The notes under the pieces are model-generated. The model did not search any database, had not been told where the DNA came from, and worked only from the letters and a program-made list of their open reading frames with translations. From a virus, in the IMG/VR virus record IMGVR_UViG_3300036760_000522, positions 124,001 to 188,000 of that record: DNA of 64,000 nt; one strand, written 5' to 3'. This document shows, in pieces, positions 7,856-23,662 of this stretch. The stretch's first letter is position 1; each line of letters starts with the position of its first letter. A program made the translations under genes and the position numbers.

Positions 7856-8260
7856 ATGAACACTTCACGCTTTCCGAACTTCCGGGAGTTCATGCTCCTC
7901 GCTAGCGAAATCGACATCAGCCGGCCTCCAGGGTTCTTGTCACAAACCTACTCTGCACGCCGATACGTCGAGTTGTATGACCTCGCCGAACGGGCTTGGA
8001 ACAGTTGCGGCGACCAAGGACCGAGGATTGATTCCATGGTCGTTGCCGTGACCAACGAGTTCATTTTCAACGAAGAAGCGGGCAAGCTCGTCGCCATGAC
8101 AGACACCCGCTTTACCTGTGGTGCACTGCTGCGCTTCAAAGGACCTGTGATAGGCTTTCCCCTCTTTGCGGTCCACCTCACAGGTACGGGCATGGACGCC
8201 TACGTCGAGTCAAAATATTGGTGGACCTACGTCCTACCACTTCAACCCAAATACCTCTGA
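7856..8260 (+). CDS. Hypothetical protein upstream of Ku
   Basis: 134 residues from ATG 7856 (an upstream in-frame ATG at 7820 overlaps the previous gene). It contains FREFMLLASEIDISRPP and a C-terminal strand-rich part (FTCGALLRFKGPVIGFPLFAV). No family recognised. The short gaps on both sides suggest co-expression with Ku. Confidence 0.5.
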   Translation: MNTSRFPNFREFMLLASEIDISRPPGFLSQTYSARRYVELYDLAERAWNSCGDQGPRIDSMVVAVTNEFIFNEEAGKLVAMTDTRFTCGALLRFKGPVIGFPLFAVHLTGTGMDAYVESKYWWTYVLPLQPKYL

Positions 8261-8286
8261 AAATCTCAAACACGAAAGAACCCACC

Positions 8287-9174
8287 ATGCGCGCCTTTGC
8301 CTCATCGTCGATCACATTCGGTCTCGTTTCGATCCCCGTCAAACTTTACGTCTCGGCCTCGGACGATCGCCCACACCTCAACATGCTCACCAAAGACGGG
8401 CACCGCGTCAAACAACAGATGCTCGATGCGGAAACCAGCCTACCTGTCGAACACAGTGAGTTGGATCGCGGCTACGAAGTCAGCAAGGGACAGTTCGTCC
8501 GAATCACCAAAGAGGAGCTTGCGTCGCTCGAGACCAAGGCCAACCAGGTTGTCGAGATCTTGGAATTCGTACCCATCGGCCATGTGGACTTCGTACAGTC
8601 TGAGAAGACCTACTACCTCAGTCCTGACAAGGGGGGAGACAAGGGCTACACGTTGCTCGCGGAAACCTTGGCCGTACAACAGGTGCAAGCAATCGCCAGA
8701 TGGACCAACCGCGGCAAGCAACACCTGGTCACCGTCCGAACCTACCGTGGAGGACTCGCACTCCAGGTGCTCTTCTACTCAAGTGAGGTACGCGACTTCG
8801 AGGAGGTTAAGGCCGCCAAAGTCGAAATCTCACAAGCTGAACGTGACTTGGCCAACCAACTCGTAGCGCACCTAACAAAGCCATCCTCTGACATCAGCCA
8901 GTACACAGATGAGTGCACGGCAACGCTGATGCGACTTGTCGACGCCAAAGTCGCCGGTCGTGAGATCGAAATCCCCCAAGCCTCCGGACAACCCGCCGTA
9001 CTCGACCTTTTTGATGCTCTCAAACGCAGCCTCGAAATCTCGGCGCAAAATACACCGAAACTCGCAAACGGGACACCGTCTGAAAAAATCAACGGCTCCT
9101 CACCGTCTCATGACAAGAACACCAACAAACCTAAATCAACCAAAAAATCAAAATCACACGCGCGTACGACTTGA
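8287..9174 (+). CDS. ku: Ku homologue (DNA end-binding protein)
   Basis: 295 residues. The N-terminus SSSITFGLVSIPVKLYVSAS is the hallmark of bacterial Ku, followed by the conserved core (LDRGYEVSKGQFVRITKEEL, VDFVQSEKTYYLSPDK, VTVRTYRGGLALQVLFYS). Known bacterial Ku forms a homodimeric ring on double-strand ends and recruits LigD. Here the C-terminus is a 40-residue Lys/Ser/Thr-rich tail, like extended tails that bind DNA. No LigD or other ligase is visible in the window. It may protect or circularise phage DNA ends. The start is fixed by the conserved N-terminus. Confidence 0.93.
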   Translation: MRAFASSSITFGLVSIPVKLYVSASDDRPHLNMLTKDGHRVKQQMLDAETSLPVEHSELDRGYEVSKGQFVRITKEELASLETKANQVVEILEFVPIGHVDFVQSEKTYYLSPDKGGDKGYTLLAETLAVQQVQAIARWTNRGKQHLVTVRTYRGGLALQVLFYSSEVRDFEEVKAAKVEISQAERDLANQLVAHLTKPSSDISQYTDECTATLMRLVDAKVAGREIEIPQASGQPAVLDLFDALKRSLEISAQNTPKLANGTPSEKINGSSPSHDKNTNKPKSTKKSKSHARTT

Positions 9175-9197: not shown

Positions 9198-9268
9198 TTT
9201 CGGACCGCGTTCAATCTTCAAAAGGAAGCTCACCTCCTCAAAGTGTGAGACTCGAACGCGGTCCGAAA
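9198..9268. repeat. 15-bp perfect inverted repeat after ku
   Basis: Arms 9198-9212 and 9254-9268 are perfectly complementary, with a 41-nt loop that itself contains a small CTTC/GAAG hairpin and an AAGGA-type sequence. There is no T run directly after it, so a cis-regulatory or mRNA-stability structure is as likely as a terminator. Confidence 0.6.
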
Positions 9269-9300: not shown

Positions 9301-9897
9301 ATGCCGAAAGGTCATGAAAAACTCGCAGTCGCAGTCGTAGACGAATTGGTGAGACGCCTCACCAATTCCAGTTCCTCCGCGTCCGCGAGCCAAGAAACAC
9401 CACAAGAAGCAAAGCCTGTTCAACGTCGCGGACGAAAAAAAGCAGTAGTAACTGCTTCGCCCCCTGTTGCCTCAGAAAACGGAGAAGCCGCCAAACGCGG
9501 TCCCGGAAGACCGAAGACAAAGTCCCTCGCTGCGGCGTCTTCAGTTGCAGCGAAACCAGACGGTCGCAAGCGCGGTCGAAAGTTGTCCGATATCGAGGGA
9601 TCCGCTGCGTCAAAAACTCCAGGTCGAAAGCGTGCAGTTGATCCTGAAACGAACGGGCATTCAAAGAAATCGGGAGCGTTGTACAACCTGATGGTGCAAG
9701 CCATGTTGGCAGAAGGCAACAAGCCCATGAAAGCCACGGACGTTCTCGAGGCTCTTGCTAGCCAGGGACACAAAGTCACGGCTAGCAACCCGCGTAACTA
9801 CGTGAGCTTCCTACTGTCGAAGCGAGAAGACCTTTTCACCAAGGTCTCACACGGAGTCTATCAAGCAAAAAAAGGGACGAGGTCGGCGGAGGCGTAA
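9301..9897 (+). CDS. HARE-HTH-type DNA-binding protein with AT-hook-like linker
   Basis: 198 residues. The N-terminal helix is followed by a basic, Ser/Ala-rich linker with AT-hook-like patches (RRGRKK 42-47, RGPGRPK 66-72, GRKRGRK 88-94, PGRKR 107-111). Residues 125-188 match the HARE-HTH/H1-like winged helix pattern, ending F-T-K-V-S-H-G-V-Y. It should bind DNA without strong sequence preference. It lies directly downstream of Ku. Near its 3' end the codons run GCA AAA AAA GGG, a slippery site, so a longer -1 frameshift form is likely. Confidence 0.75.
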   Translation: MPKGHEKLAVAVVDELVRRLTNSSSSASASQETPQEAKPVQRRGRKKAVVTASPPVASENGEAAKRGPGRPKTKSLAAASSVAAKPDGRKRGRKLSDIEGSAASKTPGRKRAVDPETNGHSKKSGALYNLMVQAMLAEGNKPMKATDVLEALASQGHKVTASNPRNYVSFLLSKREDLFTKVSHGVYQAKKGTRSAEA

Positions 9898-9912
9898 CCC
9901 CACCCACCGATC
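9867..9912 (+). promoter_or_regulatory. Candidate -1 ribosomal frameshift signal
   Basis: Seven A residues (9867-9873) form A AAA AAA in the zero frame. Seven bases later a stem begins: 9881-9889 pairs with 9904-9912 (eight pairs including one G-U, one mismatch, 14-nt loop). Slippery heptamer, spacer and stem have the standard arrangement for programmed -1 frameshifting. Confidence 0.6.
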
Positions 9913-10013
9913 TAGAACCCAAACCGACGCCCCTCACAATCGACGAAGCGATGTCTATGTGGGGCGTCGGTGGCGGGGAAGAACCTGCGAAAGATGACCC
10001 TTTCGCCGTATGA
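9873..10013 (+). CDS. -1 frame extension of the HARE-HTH protein
   Basis: In the -1 frame after the A7 run, 46 codons stay open (RDEVGGGVTPP, then LTIDEAMSMWGVGGGEEP, ending DDPFAV). The frame has no plausible start of its own apart from internal ATGs that would give about 20 residues. Its TGA overlaps the ATG of the 10,010 gene (ATGA), as expected if ribosomes really terminate there. A shifted product would be 237 residues with an acidic tail replacing GTRSAEA. A single-base sequencing error is the main alternative. Confidence 0.6.
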   Translation, partial: RDEVGGGVTPPTDLEPKPTPLTIDEAMSMWGVGGGEEPAKDDPFAV

Positions 10014-10522
10014 AAAGCCAAAGGCGACTCACACTCGCGGCTGAGTATGGGGAGAACATCCGGCGTACAACACGCGTAGATTGCCGCAGAAGTTGCTCCG
10101 CGTGTTGTAGTCACCCAGTCATCATCACTCTTGACGAAGCTGACGAGATCTACGAGTTTCTGCGTAGCAGAAGGCTCTGGACAGCTGCATTGAAGATCAG
10201 TCTTGAACAGACCTCGAAGCTCACTGCCGGTTTGAGCTTCGAGGTCTGGTTGTTAGCAGAGATTCAGTGTCCCCTGCTGGACGGCAGCGATCTTTGTAGC
10301 GTCTATCCAAAACGCCCCTTTCAATGCGCCGTCACATTCTCACGTGATCGTCGAGACTGTGAGCCGACGGTTCTCGGTCCTGGCTTGATCCCAAAGCTCG
10401 AAATCCTCGAGAAGCTTGAGAAGCTCGAAACTGATGCCGGGAATTACCGGAACATTTCGACGAGGCTACCGCTTGCAGCAGCTCTTTTGATCGCAGACAG
10501 TCGCCATTCTCATGAATCGTGA
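10010..10522 (+). CDS. YkgJ-like CxxCxxCC metal-binding protein
   Basis: 170 residues. The pattern C-R-x-S-C-S-A-C-C near residue 25 and CPLLDGSDLCSVYPKRPFQC near 88-107 match the zinc/iron-chelating domain family once called UPF0153. These proteins probably coordinate a metal through the cysteine cluster; their reaction is not established. The ATG overlaps the stop of the -1 frame extension, and its own stop overlaps the next gene, so it is translationally coupled on both sides. Confidence 0.75.
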   Translation: MKSQRRLTLAAEYGENIRRTTRVDCRRSCSACCSHPVIITLDEADEIYEFLRSRRLWTAALKISLEQTSKLTAGLSFEVWLLAEIQCPLLDGSDLCSVYPKRPFQCAVTFSRDRRDCEPTVLGPGLIPKLEILEKLEKLETDAGNYRNISTRLPLAAALLIADSRHSHES

Positions 10523-10817
10523 CTTCAATCAGTGTTGTATCTGTCTGCGGGCTTGTCGAGGACCTGAAGCCCACGTCATCAATCTCACGCGCGACGAACA
10601 AGCGTACCTCAAAAAGTCCACGGGCATAACGACGCCCGCCAGTTTCATTTATTGTCAACCTTGTTGGCGTGTCCTGTCTGATCCTGTAACCGGGATACAG
10701 TTTTTCACAAACCACTTCCAAAAGCTTGTGAAAGCGATGGGTGTTGCCAAGCCAGAGGTGCATGCCAACGCGTACCGGGACAGACTTTACAAATTGATGC
10801 GGAGGAACAGCAACTGA
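10512..10817 (+). CDS. Small putative zinc-binding protein
   Basis: 101 residues from ATG 10,512, overlapping the previous gene by 11 bases. Cysteines CCICLRAC (8-15) and YCQPCW (about 47-52) can make a four-Cys zinc site. The C-terminus is basic (RDRLYKLMRRNSN). No named family. Its stop overlaps the start of the DHH gene. Confidence 0.6.
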   Translation: MNRDFNQCCICLRACRGPEAHVINLTRDEQAYLKKSTGITTPASFIYCQPCWRVLSDPVTGIQFFTNHFQKLVKAMGVAKPEVHANAYRDRLYKLMRRNSN

Positions 10818-11947
10818 TGATCGACAAGAATCGACTACGAGACATCAAGCGCATCATCACACACGCGCACTGCTCGGATGGGGTAGCGTCTGCCATGATC
10901 CTCCTCGACGCATTGCCTGAAGCGACAGTGGAGTTCGTCCAGTACGGCACAAAAGAGCACAAAGAGCTCGAGGCCACACCAAACACAATCTTTTGCGACT
11001 TTTCCCCTCCTAGAGAACGTGTCGACGAGTTCTTGGCAGCTGAGACTATCGTGCTCGACCACCACAAAGGTGCCCCCGTAGAACGATTCGTGGAAGCAGG
11101 CCTGGGGGACTTCGTCCCAGAAACCCCAGGAGTCTCTGGTGCCAGTCTCGCCTACGCGGACGTTTGGGTGCCCCTCAGAAACCCAAACGATACGCCGAAT
11201 TTCTTTACACGCCTAGCAGTGCTCGCTGCAACCTACGACACTTGGCAAACAGACAGCCAGGACTGGGACGAAGCCTGTGATGTGGCTGAGTGCCTAAGAT
11301 TCTGGCCGTGGTCGTATATCGAAGACAAAGTCAAAAAATCGTCTTTCTTCGGTTCTTCCCCGCCACCACAGACGCTGACATGGGAGGATCTGTTCGAGGT
11401 CGGTCCCCACCTCAGCAAACTGTCAGATGTGGACTCCGTGACACTGTCCAAAAACGCTTTTCGTGTCACCAGCAAGCGGGAGCGGAAGGTCGCCATCGTT
11501 CCAACGACAGGTGCCAAGCTAAACAAGGTGGCACACCATGATCAAGGCAATGCAGATCTCGTCATAGGCTTCAGTTACAACATCGAACCGGACTCCGTAA
11601 AGCAAATCTGTTCATGCCGGACCAAAACAGATTTCGATTGTCACGCGTTCGCGCTTGCCATGGGCGGTGGAGGACACACCAAAGCCGCAGGGTTTTCAAT
11701 ACCTGTGGATGTAACCCACAAAGACCCGATAACTGTCATCCGACGCATGTTGGGACTCTACGAAGAAGTTGAAGACCTGTGGAAGGCCAAGATCAAAGAG
11801 CCACACTTCACAGAGAATTATCCAAGACCCCAACAAGCTTTCGCGCATCTGCTACTAGTACAGATACCGGGGCTCCGGAATGCACCCGAAGTGCTCAAAC
11901 TGTTTTTCCCAGAGGGAACTCCCGATCCAAGTCACCAGAACAAATGA
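10817..11947 (+). CDS. DHH-family phosphoesterase
   Basis: 376 residues. Motifs in order: THAHCSDGVASAMI (DHH motif I variant), FCDFSPP (motif II), VLDHHKGAP (motif III, the DHH signature) and a C-terminal DHHA1 motif MGGGGHTKAAGFS. The family hydrolyses phosphodiesters in short RNAs, pAp or cyclic dinucleotides, using Mn2+. HCSDG in place of the usual H-x-D-x-D-G resembles a phage subgroup with H-A-N-C-P-D-G. In phage it might degrade nanoRNA or nucleotide alarm signals, which is inference. It ends a coupled operon starting near 9301. Confidence 0.85.
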   Translation: MIDKNRLRDIKRIITHAHCSDGVASAMILLDALPEATVEFVQYGTKEHKELEATPNTIFCDFSPPRERVDEFLAAETIVLDHHKGAPVERFVEAGLGDFVPETPGVSGASLAYADVWVPLRNPNDTPNFFTRLAVLAATYDTWQTDSQDWDEACDVAECLRFWPWSYIEDKVKKSSFFGSSPPPQTLTWEDLFEVGPHLSKLSDVDSVTLSKNAFRVTSKRERKVAIVPTTGAKLNKVAHHDQGNADLVIGFSYNIEPDSVKQICSCRTKTDFDCHAFALAMGGGGHTKAAGFSIPVDVTHKDPITVIRRMLGLYEEVEDLWKAKIKEPHFTENYPRPQQAFAHLLLVQIPGLRNAPEVLKLFFPEGTPDPSHQNK

Positions 11948-12089
11948 TAGAGAGACGGCGGAGCACCCGATCTGTCTTTCCCTGTTGCAACGCTTCCTGC
12001 AACATCCTCTGTCGAGGGTCATTGATCTTGCGAGCCCGCTCGAGTGCTTGACGAGCGAGACGGTTCCAGTCGACAACGCTTCGTGTCAT
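11895..12089 (-). CDS. Hypothetical small helical protein
   Basis: 64 residues if started at ATG 12,089 (a TTG at 12,113 is an alternative). The sequence is helical and charged (LARQALERARKINDPRQRMLQEALQQGK). Its 3' end overlaps the convergent DHH gene by about 53 bases. Modest confidence that it is translated. Confidence 0.4.
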   Translation of the reverse strand: MTRSVVDWNRLARQALERARKINDPRQRMLQEALQQGKTDRVLRRLSIICSGDLDREFPLGKTV

Positions 12090-20317: not shown

Positions 20318-20906
20318 GGCGAACTCTCTCACCGATCTTGTGCAGCAAAGCGTTGAGAGATTTTTTGGCTTCCTCGTAGCTCAAAGTCCCGTGTCGAACA
20401 GCGTAATCGATGCGATCCAATACGATGCCAGCAGCTGCGTAGCTCTTGAAGTTGTCGGTCCGAAGAAAATCGTCTCGCGTGCTACACAACCTAGTCTCTA
20501 CTTGCATCTGAAACTCTGACCACGACTCGTGTCGGCGATCAGAGACCTCTTTTACGGCATCGACACCTTCAGGAACTGGAGGTGTCGGGATCTGGTAGGC
20601 ACGCTCAATTTCCGAAAGGGTTTTCCCAAATGGCTGCTCTGAATCGTTGAACTTTCTCCAAAGAGCAATGACGTCCCAACGCTCTCGACAGACGAAACAC
20701 CAGGCTCCGCTGGGCCCCCCTGAAGACGTAAGATAGACTCGGGCACTCGGCTTCTCGTCCTTACCGTGAAAGGGACAAGAGATCTGCTCTTCCTTGTCGT
20801 GGCTTGAAAGCTTGATGCCGTGTTGGCGCAGAACGCTGTGCACAGACACTTGGTCATGAATTTTCGCAACCCGTTGTTTGTACCAAGCACGAAGTTCGTC
20901 ACTCAC
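20286..20906 (-). CDS. Primase-type CHC2 zinc-finger protein lacking a TOPRIM domain
   Basis: 206 residues from GTG 20,906, which overlaps the helicase stop (GTGA). Residues 15-85 match the DnaG zinc-binding domain: VSVHSVLRQHGI, ISCPFHGKDEKPSARVYL and GAWCFVCRERWDVIALW give the C-x2-H ... C-x2-C site. The rest is helical and has no TOPRIM or RNA-polymerase motifs. In DnaG this finger reads the template start site, so this may be a recognition subunit for a catalytic primase outside the window, or a repurposed regulator. Confidence 0.8.
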   Translation of the reverse strand: MSDELRAWYKQRVAKIHDQVSVHSVLRQHGIKLSSHDKEEQISCPFHGKDEKPSARVYLTSSGGPSGAWCFVCRERWDVIALWRKFNDSEQPFGKTLSEIERAYQIPTPPVPEGVDAVKEVSDRRHESWSEFQMQVETRLCSTRDDFLRTDNFKSYAAAGIVLDRIDYAVRHGTLSYEEAKKSLNALLHKIGERVRHGPASQNPDT

Positions 20907-23662
20907 AGTCCAGCCTCATTCAACAGTCGCAAATCCTCTTTGGTCAGCTCCTTGTTGTTGAAGGATTCCTGTCCTTCCAGGTTGCGCAACCTTCGAGCGT
21001 TCGCGAAGTCGACCTTCACCTTAATCTTGCTGAACAAGTCGTTGTCGCGGTTCTTAAGATTGCAAAAAATAGTCTCTCCTGCTGCCCGTAAGGAGTCGCA
21101 CAAATACGTCGTCGTCACGTAATCCGCGGAGCGTTCTGCCTCATTGGCATAAGACAAATTGCTGAACCGATACACACCCTCCTTCTCGGTCCCTTCCTGC
21201 TTGTCCGCTGCGTCTTTGCCCTGACGGTTGATCTGGTGCAACAACAAAACCGGTAAGCCAGTCCCCCCATTGAAATGTAGGGCAAGGAGCTTAGCGTCAA
21301 CAATTACTGTGTTGTGCTCAACAGTGTAGTCCTTGTGTGCCCGAGCAGCTTTGACAAGACCACTATGATCGACGACCAGTAGCCCAACATCCATCGATCG
21401 ATGAACGGACTCCGCATACACACGAATGTCATCGACACCGACTTTGCGATCAGGTGAATAGACCCGAATCTTGTGGTATTCAGGATTGTTCTCGAGATCG
21501 TGTAGGGCTTCTTTGTAGAAGGCTTCTTCCTCCCTAGTCAAGTCTCCGTCACGTACCTTGCGATAGTCCAAGGGTTGTCGACCCTGAGCTGTGAACTTCC
21601 CGTTGGATGTGTGCATCACAGCCAGTAGACGTCGCAAATGCTCGTACCGCATTTCGAGGCTGACGTACAGGCTGTGTGTGCGATAGCGTGTCGCCAGGTT
21701 GTAACACCAATTGATCGCAAAACTCGAATTGTGAGTGATAATGTCATTCGCTACGAAAGTGCGGTGCACAGGCACTGATAGGTCATAGGTCATTTCAACG
21801 CCCATTGAATTAACACTCTTGACACAATCCCAGTAAATATCGCCTGTGCTCACGCCAAATTTTTCAGCGACATCCGAGGTAACCGTGGGATTGTTTCTCG
21901 AGGCTGTACGAGCATACCTCCAATGTCCATTGATCTTAATGCGACGTCCATCTGGCAATAGACTAGAAGGCACAGGAGTCGAGTCTATTTTAGGTAGACG
22001 CGAAAGGAGTCGAGAAAATTTAGCCTCTTTGCCTACAATCCGAACTTTTTCACAGAACAACCGTTTGCTTGGATTGGTGACTATTCGGACAGTCCAGAAA
22101 CGATATGGGCGGTCCTCTACCTTTGTATTAACGAAAGTAACCGTTGATTTTATACCTAGACGTAGCAGCAGAGACTGTATGTCCTCACAAAGCTCTCTAC
22201 ACACGGACGAATAGGTGATGATGTGACTGGACTGCTTAGCACCTGTTCCGTCTTTGTTGATTCGATCCTTTCGAACGTAGTCGTCGGTGCAACAGGATCC
22301 GTTTGTTGACCACAAGGCTCCCAACAGAGCCGCGACAAGATCCTCGCTCATTCCAAAAAACTCACTTGGAATCCGCTTGTTGTAAGAGTCCGTCCCGTAA
22401 AGACCGAGCTGCTCTAAAAGAAGCCGAAGTGGAGAAACCGTACGATGCCACCGATCACCTAAACCGTGAGCAACTCGAACATACGGAACACGTTGGCCGC
22501 CCTGAGGAACATTTAGAGAAAACCAAGGATTTTCATAGTCGGGCTCTCCTTCTATGTAACCAAGGTCTCTCAAACAAGTAACGAAATCACACAAAATGGG
22601 CCCGTCTTGTTGTGTGAAGTTGATGCATTGTCCGATCGCACCGTCCCCGATGAGATAGCCAACCAATTTGACCTCTGAGAGCGAGTACGGTCGTGCCCCC
22701 ACAGCCCTCATGACTTTGGGGGTCGCTACAAAGTCCCCTTCCTTCAATGACGACAACGACTCCCATCCGAAAGGAGTGAGAAATTTGTGATTGGAGGTGG
22801 CACCTATACGCCGGCCTGACACAAGTAACAGTTCAAATATTTCACGTCTTCCGTTCTGAACTAGATGTGAAGCCGGAGTTTGTACAAGTACTGGGCTTGC
22901 CCCTTCATTTTGGATCGCTGACACTACCGGCAAGTCGCCGCAGGCGTACAGCTCTGACAGGCGCCGACGTCGTTGGGTGCGGTGGTCAAATACTGTAGTG
23001 TCTCCTGCTAGGCATTTCAACTCTCCTGTCGCGGCAGCGTGAACCCACAGTTCTCCTTTCTTGATGCCATGGCACGTTTTGTCAATATGATCAATGCCTG
23101 TGAACTTCCCATAAGCCTTGTCTTTCTGTGACTTGGCATCTTGGTACTCTGTCCACACACGTTCCGTATCGTGTACGATGTCCCCTTCAATTTGAATGTT
23201 GTGGTCTCGAGGAACCTCCTCGTAGACGTGTTGGTTGAAGTACTGTAGCGCGTGTGTGACGCCTTTCAGCTGTGTCTTGCCTTCGACACGTCCCCTCGTG
23301 ATGATCTCTTCGACGTCACGTAGCAGTTTTCGAACCTTGTTCTGGGCCTGTTCCTCACGTAGCGTTCTGAGTAGCGTGCCGTAGTTACTACGAGTGTAGG
23401 CTTCGACTGTTTTGATGTCGGCAAGTTTTTCGACAACCGTTATTTCGTTATTTCGTTCGAAGTAATCTCGAATCGACGCCCAGTCCGGAGGTTCCAGATT
23501 CTGTTGAACGTACTCCTGTACGTAGGTCCAGATCTTGGTTTCATCAGGGTTGTGCCACTCAAACCCTGATCTCAATAGACGACGATAGTTGCCGTCTATT
23601 TGCTCAATCGTGAGCTTAGCATCCCCAAAATCGATGATGCCCCGTAAAAGCCGTTTGGACAT
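20903..23662 (-). CDS. dnaB: DnaB-type replicative helicase interrupted by an intein
   Basis: 919 residues before splicing. Extein N (1-216) is a helical N-domain leading into GKFTGIDHIDKTCHGIKKGELW and AAATGELK. The intein occupies 217-645. Extein C starts SSFAINWCYNLATRYRTHSLYVSLEM and continues with LLVVDHSGL (Walker B) and VLLLHQINRQGK (motif H3/H4). The spliced Walker A reads A-A-A-T-G-E-L-K-S-S, with Leu where Gly is usual. It should unwind the fork as a hexamer. The stop overlaps the primase-like gene. Confidence 0.9.
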   Translation of the reverse strand: MSKRLLRGIIDFGDAKLTIEQIDGNYRRLLRSGFEWHNPDETKIWTYVQEYVQQNLEPPDWASIRDYFERNNEITVVEKLADIKTVEAYTRSNYGTLLRTLREEQAQNKVRKLLRDVEEIITRGRVEGKTQLKGVTHALQYFNQHVYEEVPRDHNIQIEGDIVHDTERVWTEYQDAKSQKDKAYGKFTGIDHIDKTCHGIKKGELWVHAAATGELKCLAGDTTVFDHRTQRRRRLSELYACGDLPVVSAIQNEGASPVLVQTPASHLVQNGRREIFELLLVSGRRIGATSNHKFLTPFGWESLSSLKEGDFVATPKVMRAVGARPYSLSEVKLVGYLIGDGAIGQCINFTQQDGPILCDFVTCLRDLGYIEGEPDYENPWFSLNVPQGGQRVPYVRVAHGLGDRWHRTVSPLRLLLEQLGLYGTDSYNKRIPSEFFGMSEDLVAALLGALWSTNGSCCTDDYVRKDRINKDGTGAKQSSHIITYSSVCRELCEDIQSLLLRLGIKSTVTFVNTKVEDRPYRFWTVRIVTNPSKRLFCEKVRIVGKEAKFSRLLSRLPKIDSTPVPSSLLPDGRRIKINGHWRYARTASRNNPTVTSDVAEKFGVSTGDIYWDCVKSVNSMGVEMTYDLSVPVHRTFVANDIITHNSSFAINWCYNLATRYRTHSLYVSLEMRYEHLRRLLAVMHTSNGKFTAQGRQPLDYRKVRDGDLTREEEAFYKEALHDLENNPEYHKIRVYSPDRKVGVDDIRVYAESVHRSMDVGLLVVDHSGLVKAARAHKDYTVEHNTVIVDAKLLALHFNGGTGLPVLLLHQINRQGKDAADKQEGTEKEGVYRFSNLSYANEAERSADYVTTTYLCDSLRAAGETIFCNLKNRDNDLFSKIKVKVDFANARRLRNLEGQESFNNKELTKEDLRLLNEAGL
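21728..23014 (-). other. Intein with LAGLIDADG-type endonuclease domain
   Basis: 429 residues (217-645 of the helicase precursor). Block A is CLAGDTTVFD with Cys1, block B GATSNHKFLTPFGW, block F VRIVTNPSKRLFCEK, block G VANDIITHN followed by Ser+1. All splicing residues are present. Endonuclease motif C is LVGYLIGDGAI with its Asp, but motif E reads LLGALWSTNGSC, with Asn where the second catalytic Asp belongs. It should splice but may no longer cut. The insertion is at the Walker A Lys-Ser, a known hotspot. Confidence 0.92.

Follow-up and report, generated by a model that had tools for sequence, protein, structure and literature searches.

A candidate programmed −1 frameshift predicted to add an acidic tail to a winged-helix protein of a phage-like genome

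Introduction

Does a phage gene for a basic DNA-binding protein give rise to a second, longer product through a programmed −1 frameshift? The question is raised by a locus in a 64,000-nucleotide stretch (positions 124,001 to 188,000; hereafter the window) of the 301,550-base virus record IMGVR_UViG_3300036760_000522, whose gene content is phage-like, with tail-fibre-like, DNA polymerase and helicase genes and five tRNAs within the window. A first-pass annotation, made from the sequence alone, had proposed that ribosomes slip on an A_AAA_AAA heptamer near the 3' end of this gene and thereby extend a HARE-HTH protein by an acidic tail. Most annotated phage frameshifts are those of tail assembly chaperones, whereas the gene concerned here encodes a DNA-binding protein, and its tail would be missed by automatic annotation.

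Results

A putative slip site would join the gene to a −1 frame that ends at the next gene

The elements of the locus are reported in Table 1. Read from the ATG at 9301, the slip-site context is GCA AAA AAA GGG, seven codons ahead of the zero-frame stop, and the heptamer is in frame exactly as had been proposed. A shift at this point would join 191 zero-frame residues to 46 residues of the −1 frame, yielding a trans-frame protein of the predicted length, 237 aa, in which the tail replaces the zero-frame end GTRSAEA. The −1 frame terminates at TGA 10011-10013; this stop shares two bases with the start codon of the next ORF, ATG 10010-10012, in an ATGA, and the earlier description of a 46-codon open frame ending in this junction is correct to the base. 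The tail is indeed acidic, with 10 D/E against 3 K/R and a calculated pI of 4.05.

Table 1. Features of the frameshift locus and neighbouring genes (window positions; L001, related virus contig)
Feature	Position	Strand	Details
Ku gene	8218-9174		PF02735, E 1.8e-34; upstream of the winged-helix gene
Zero-frame gene	9301..9897	+	198 aa; counterpart in L001, 6001-6600
SD-like GGAG	9852..9855	+	conserved in L001; anti-SD duplex −6.1 kcal/mol
Slippery heptamer A_AAA_AAA	9867..9873	+	GGG next; identical in L001
−1 frame tail	9873..10013	+	46 codons + TGA: RDEVGGGVTPPTDLEPKPTPLTIDEAMSMWGVGGGEEPAKDDPFAV
Spacer	9874..9879	+	6 nt, GGGACG; GGGGCG in L001
Stem-loop	9880..9913	+	AGGUCGG(C)GG ... CC(A)CCGAUCU; arms identical in L001
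Zero-frame stop TAA	9895..9897	+	retained in L001
Next gene	10010..10522	+	170 aa; CxxCxxCC putative metal-chelating domain, PF03692 E 1.8e-8
Third gene	10512..10817	+	101 aa; start overlaps end of the 10010 gene

Since ATG, GTG and TTG are all absent from the −1 frame between its upstream stop and tail codon 27, independent initiation cannot make the tail, which, to judge from its sequence, must be reached by way of the upstream gene. The possibility that the tail is a separate gene was accordingly rejected, the first ATG, at codon 27, leaving 20 aa only. Tail codons 1-26 are conserved too, although they lie upstream of any possible start codon. A minus-strand ORF is also found at 9836-10114.

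An open −1 frame of at least 46 codons is common here, being found at 18% of in-frame positions and at 17 of 65 ORF ends. Heptamers of the form A_AAA_AAN in the reading frame are far fewer, with 4 in the ~20,140 codons of the longest ORFs of the window, and only from that at 9867-9873 does the −1 frame run on past the stop of the zero frame. The same gene holds another in-frame A_AAA_AAA, at 9434-9440 in an AT-hook-like stretch. It was rejected as a slip site: no SD-like element lies within the required distance and its −1 frame, open for 66 codons in the window and for about a dozen in the relative described below, is not conserved, the counterpart of the heptamer itself being A_AAA_AAG there.

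Elements flanking the heptamer resemble known frameshift stimulators

The first-pass annotation had placed a nine-position stem after a 7-nt spacer. A stem is present, but its start and extent required correction: it begins at A9880 (A9880-U9913) rather than at 9881, which leaves a spacer of 6 nt, and it consists of seven pairs (A9880-G9886 with C9907-U9913) followed by a C.A mismatch and then 2 further pairs, with the zero-frame UAA in the hairpin loop. The calculated stability of the hairpin in the window, −17.1 kcal/mol (z −1.4), is modest alone, and that of its counterpart in the relative is stronger (−24.5 kcal/mol, z −3.25); as the stem arms are identical in both sequences (n=2), covariation is uninformative.

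On the upstream side, 11 nt separate the GGAG from the first base of the A7 run (~10-11 nt upstream of the heptamer), a spacing inside the 6-17 nt range in which SD-like elements stimulate frameshifting in E. coli (PMC4066793). An SD-like motif of this class falls in the required range by chance at 11-13% of positions. All together, the arrangement is that of the dnaX/IS type, with a zero-frame X_XXY_YYZ heptamer, a stem 6 nt downstream (5-8 nt being the criterion) and the optional upstream SD-like stimulator; among IS frameshift heptamers, A_AAA_AAG plus A_AAA_AAA make up 72% (PMC4066793). In addition, genes for tRNA-Lys(UUU) and tRNA-Lys(CUU) lie side by side in both phages. These Lys isoacceptors belong to an array of five tRNAs at 781-1333, the order of which is kept in the relative (L015 5192-5703).

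The tail is the best-conserved part of the gene in the one relative found

When viral contigs were scanned by protein, by alignment and by the tail alone, the one relative to emerge in any scan was 3300037424_001177 (L001), a separate 159-kb virus contig in which the gene is about 85-88% identical. No further relatives were found in genome contigs, plasmids or GenBank phages, and a match to Bacillus phage P59 (34% identity, E 6) was without significance; the conservation evidence therefore comprises two sequences in all, both of them metagenomic assemblies.

In L001 the run is again A7 and the zero-frame stop is kept; the stem has the same two arms, and the −1 frame is open as far as the ATGA junction with the next gene. 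The frameshift proposal had been declared vulnerable, at the sequence level, to a different length of the A-run and to a −1 frame that relatives do not conserve. On both counts the comparison supports it: the run is A7 in the separate virus contig as well, and in this one relative 43 of the 46 tail residues are identical, the one indel is of 3 nt, and the residue changes are D/G, P/S and F/Y.

At the DNA level, the tail past the zero-frame stop is 95.5% identical between the two sequences. The gene ahead of the slip site reaches 87% (Fisher p 0.009 against the tail) and the intergenic DNA preceding the gene about 77% (Fisher p 0.0001). At synonymous sites the tail shows 3 differences per 33, the upstream part 46 per 140 (p 0.005); set against the next gene, the tail does not differ significantly (p 0.13). 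In the ranking by identity of 136-nt windows along the aligned region, 9850-9985 stands in the top 1.2%, and the tail contains an identical block of 82 nt, 9904-9985. Within the tail, pN is 0.03 and pS 0.09, values that derive from one relative and six substitutions (3 synonymous and 3 not). With six substitutions only, these figures are suggestive of purifying selection specific to the −1 frame; more weight falls on the difference from intergenic DNA. It is this conservation in L001 that, as far as sequence comparison goes, raises the slip-site arrangement well above chance.

The encoded protein is predicted to carry a winged-helix domain

In the predicted model, an N-terminal helix is followed by a disordered linker of basic character, in which the stretches KRGPGRPK and GRKRGRK are AT-hook-like, and by a confident winged helix at residues 123-189 (pLDDT about 90). 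This domain is entirely encoded in the zero frame and would be carried by both the 198-aa and the 237-aa forms. The HARE-HTH label could not be upheld, as the gene has no match to PF05066 (cut-off 25.9 bits) and the sole hint of this family is a PF05066 E of 0.15 in one member of the three-protein family set. A PDB sequence search returned chance ankyrin matches only. In a Foldseek comparison, the top PDB hit was the Rok DNA-binding domain (E 0.04). Leading hits among viral models (BFVD, best E 0.0013) include phage proteins with a Rok domain, and no hit in either set reaches E 0.001. The modelled domain is thus described as a winged helix, Rok-like at best. The overall layout, with an N-terminal helix, a long linker and a C-terminal winged helix, resembles that of Rok, a Bacillus DNA-binding repressor, and of Rok-like phage proteins, but the structural match lies below significance and similarity in sequence is not shown.

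The 198-aa form is strongly basic, with a calculated net charge of about +19, to which the tail contributes about −7. Acidic tails occur in other DNA-binding proteins and, on that analogy, a reasonable guess is that the tail would compete with DNA for the basic linker.

Elsewhere in the phage, a paralogue (G000:288880-289140; L003 1327-2061) has the same winged-helix domain. It has no A7 run, and its C-terminus is different and in-frame.

Shifted ribosomes would end on the start codon of the next gene

Neither the gene at 10010 nor that at 10512 has an SD sequence (−0.2 and +0.3 kcal/mol, respectively). Termination at 9897 leaves a ribosome over 110 nt short of the ATG at 10010, whereas a shifted one would end on it. 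Because both genes lack an SD and shifted ribosomes would end on the ATG at 10010, the frameshift would probably feed ribosomes to both by coupling, and it likely also controls them. This argument is soft, since the SD is absent from several other genes of the same phage. The DHH gene at 10817 is probably not part of the coupled unit, because it has an SD of its own, a strong one (−9.5 kcal/mol), and lies in the opposite orientation in the relative. Specifically, the DHH-phosphoesterase region 10817-12089 is inverted with respect to the related contig (L001 7517-8732), and the flanking DNA is collinear on both sides.

On the other side of the winged-helix gene, a perfect 15-nt inverted repeat, TTTCGGACCGCGTTC / GAACGCGGTCCGAAA, lies at 9198-9268, between this gene and the Ku gene. 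Both arms are present in L001; the loop is 41 nt here and shorter in L001.

Discussion

The best explanation of these data is, with good confidence, a programmed −1 ribosomal frameshift of the dnaX/IS911 kind. Pairing of the GGAG behind the ribosome with 16S rRNA, together with a hairpin in front that resists unwinding, would make it pause on AAA AAA (two Lys codons); both Lys-tRNAs could then slip back by one base within the A7 run and pair again, and reading would resume in the −1 frame. The output would be the 198-aa basic DNA-binding protein together with a fraction of the 237-aa form bearing the 46-residue acidic tail. The shifted ribosomes would terminate at the TGA overlapping the next start, so feeding the CxxCxxCC gene and the one following it. 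The data show the sequence elements, their conservation in one relative, the constraint on the tail and its lack of a start codon; that ribosomes shift here, and at what rate, is our inference, and so are the coupled translation of the following genes and any influence of the tail on how the protein binds DNA. A more ambitious version, in which a dnaX-type frameshift sets the ratio of a basic nucleoid-type protein to its acidic-tailed form and gates two SD-less genes, with the phage's own tRNA-Lys tuning the slip, appears rather unlikely when taken as a whole.

The main rival is transcriptional slippage at A7, in which the polymerase would add one A (or drop two) and the same 237-aa protein would result. 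The site is a homopolymer of seven A, the conservation evidence is compatible with slippage to an equal degree, and the mechanism is used by Thermus dnaX and some IS elements, with short runs slipping in a helpful context (PMC5009743). Seven is nonetheless a short run, the high-efficiency cases in vivo having had runs of 9 (PMC5009743), and slippage would have no need of the two translational stimulators, the SD-like GGAG upstream and the hairpin 6 nt past the heptamer; we regard slippage as improbable. Constraint on the nucleotides themselves has also to be weighed: the gene would simply end at 9897, with no functional frameshift, and the tail DNA would be kept as an RNA element, an sRNA or a leader of the next gene. 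The 82-nt identical block and the unusually conserved synonymous sites would suit such a role, but the codon-long indel, the frame open to the exact ATGA in both sequences, the mild changes (the three replacements listed above and 3 synonymous ones) and the placing of the slip site exactly where the two frames would join all speak for coding, and we give this alternative little credence. An Rfam search of the locus gave no family at or above its threshold.

Two further readings concern the A-run itself. Homopolymers are error-prone and both records are metagenomic assemblies, so that the true run might be A8 (or A5) and the gene a plain 237-aa ORF; yet an identical A7 stands in two records whose surrounding DNA is ~10% different, with the zero-frame stop intact and the heptamer in the A_AAA_AAA register in each, which makes an assembly or sequencing error very hard to credit. 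Least credible of all is a fixed frameshift mutation that cut off an in-frame C-terminus in the common ancestor, or a phase-variable A-run. A-runs do mutate readily and the tail resembles coding sequence, but at an upstream synonymous difference of ~33% a dead tail should show more changes, stops and non-triplet indels, and it is instead the best-conserved part.

A programmed −1 frameshift would have several known counterparts. It resembles E. coli dnaX (tau/gamma) in the A-rich heptamer read as two Lys codons, the SD-like element, the hairpin a few nt downstream and the two products with a common N-terminus. The SD-like element of dnaX lies about 10 nt upstream of its slip site. The E. coli dnaX signal has three elements, namely an SD-like element, a heptamer and a hairpin (PMC3711429), its heptamer is A_AAA_AAG instead of A_AAA_AAA, and frameshifting shortens the protein there, whereas here it would lengthen it and end on the start of the next gene. 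The IS3/IS911 transposases share the A_AAA_AAA or A_AAA_AAG heptamer, the GGAG SD-like stimulator and the stem-loop; in our case the downstream frame is a 46-residue acidic tail rather than a catalytic domain, and there is no transposase. In phages, the lambda G-GT chaperone and the capsid/tail Ig-domain proteins also have a −1 frameshift near the 3' end of the gene that provides a C-terminal extension (PMC5009743), but these are virion-assembly genes, while the present gene encodes a DNA-binding protein beside a Ku gene. A tail assembly chaperone frameshift was rejected, the neighbours being Ku, CxxCxxCC and DHH genes and not a tape measure gene. Lactobacillus phage A2 cro is a further case of a −1 frameshift in a phage DNA-binding regulator, but there shifting shortens the product by 12 aa, and the effect, observed in E. 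coli, appeared to have no relevance in L. casei (PMC5009743). The mechanism is hence of a known kind, and the gene it would serve is unusual for a phage.

If this reading is true, the locus would be one in which a regulatory role of frameshifting, as a switch tied to the downstream genes by the exact ATGA junction, can be put to the test. A phage with both Lys tRNAs would also bear on whether virus-encoded tRNAs affect frameshifting, which is an open question (PMC5009743).

Farther downstream in the window, the DnaB-like helicase gene at 20903-23662 contains an apparent intein, as judged by inspecting its translation by eye, and its product is 34% identical to a protein of the uncultured 485-kb phage LR745208.1.
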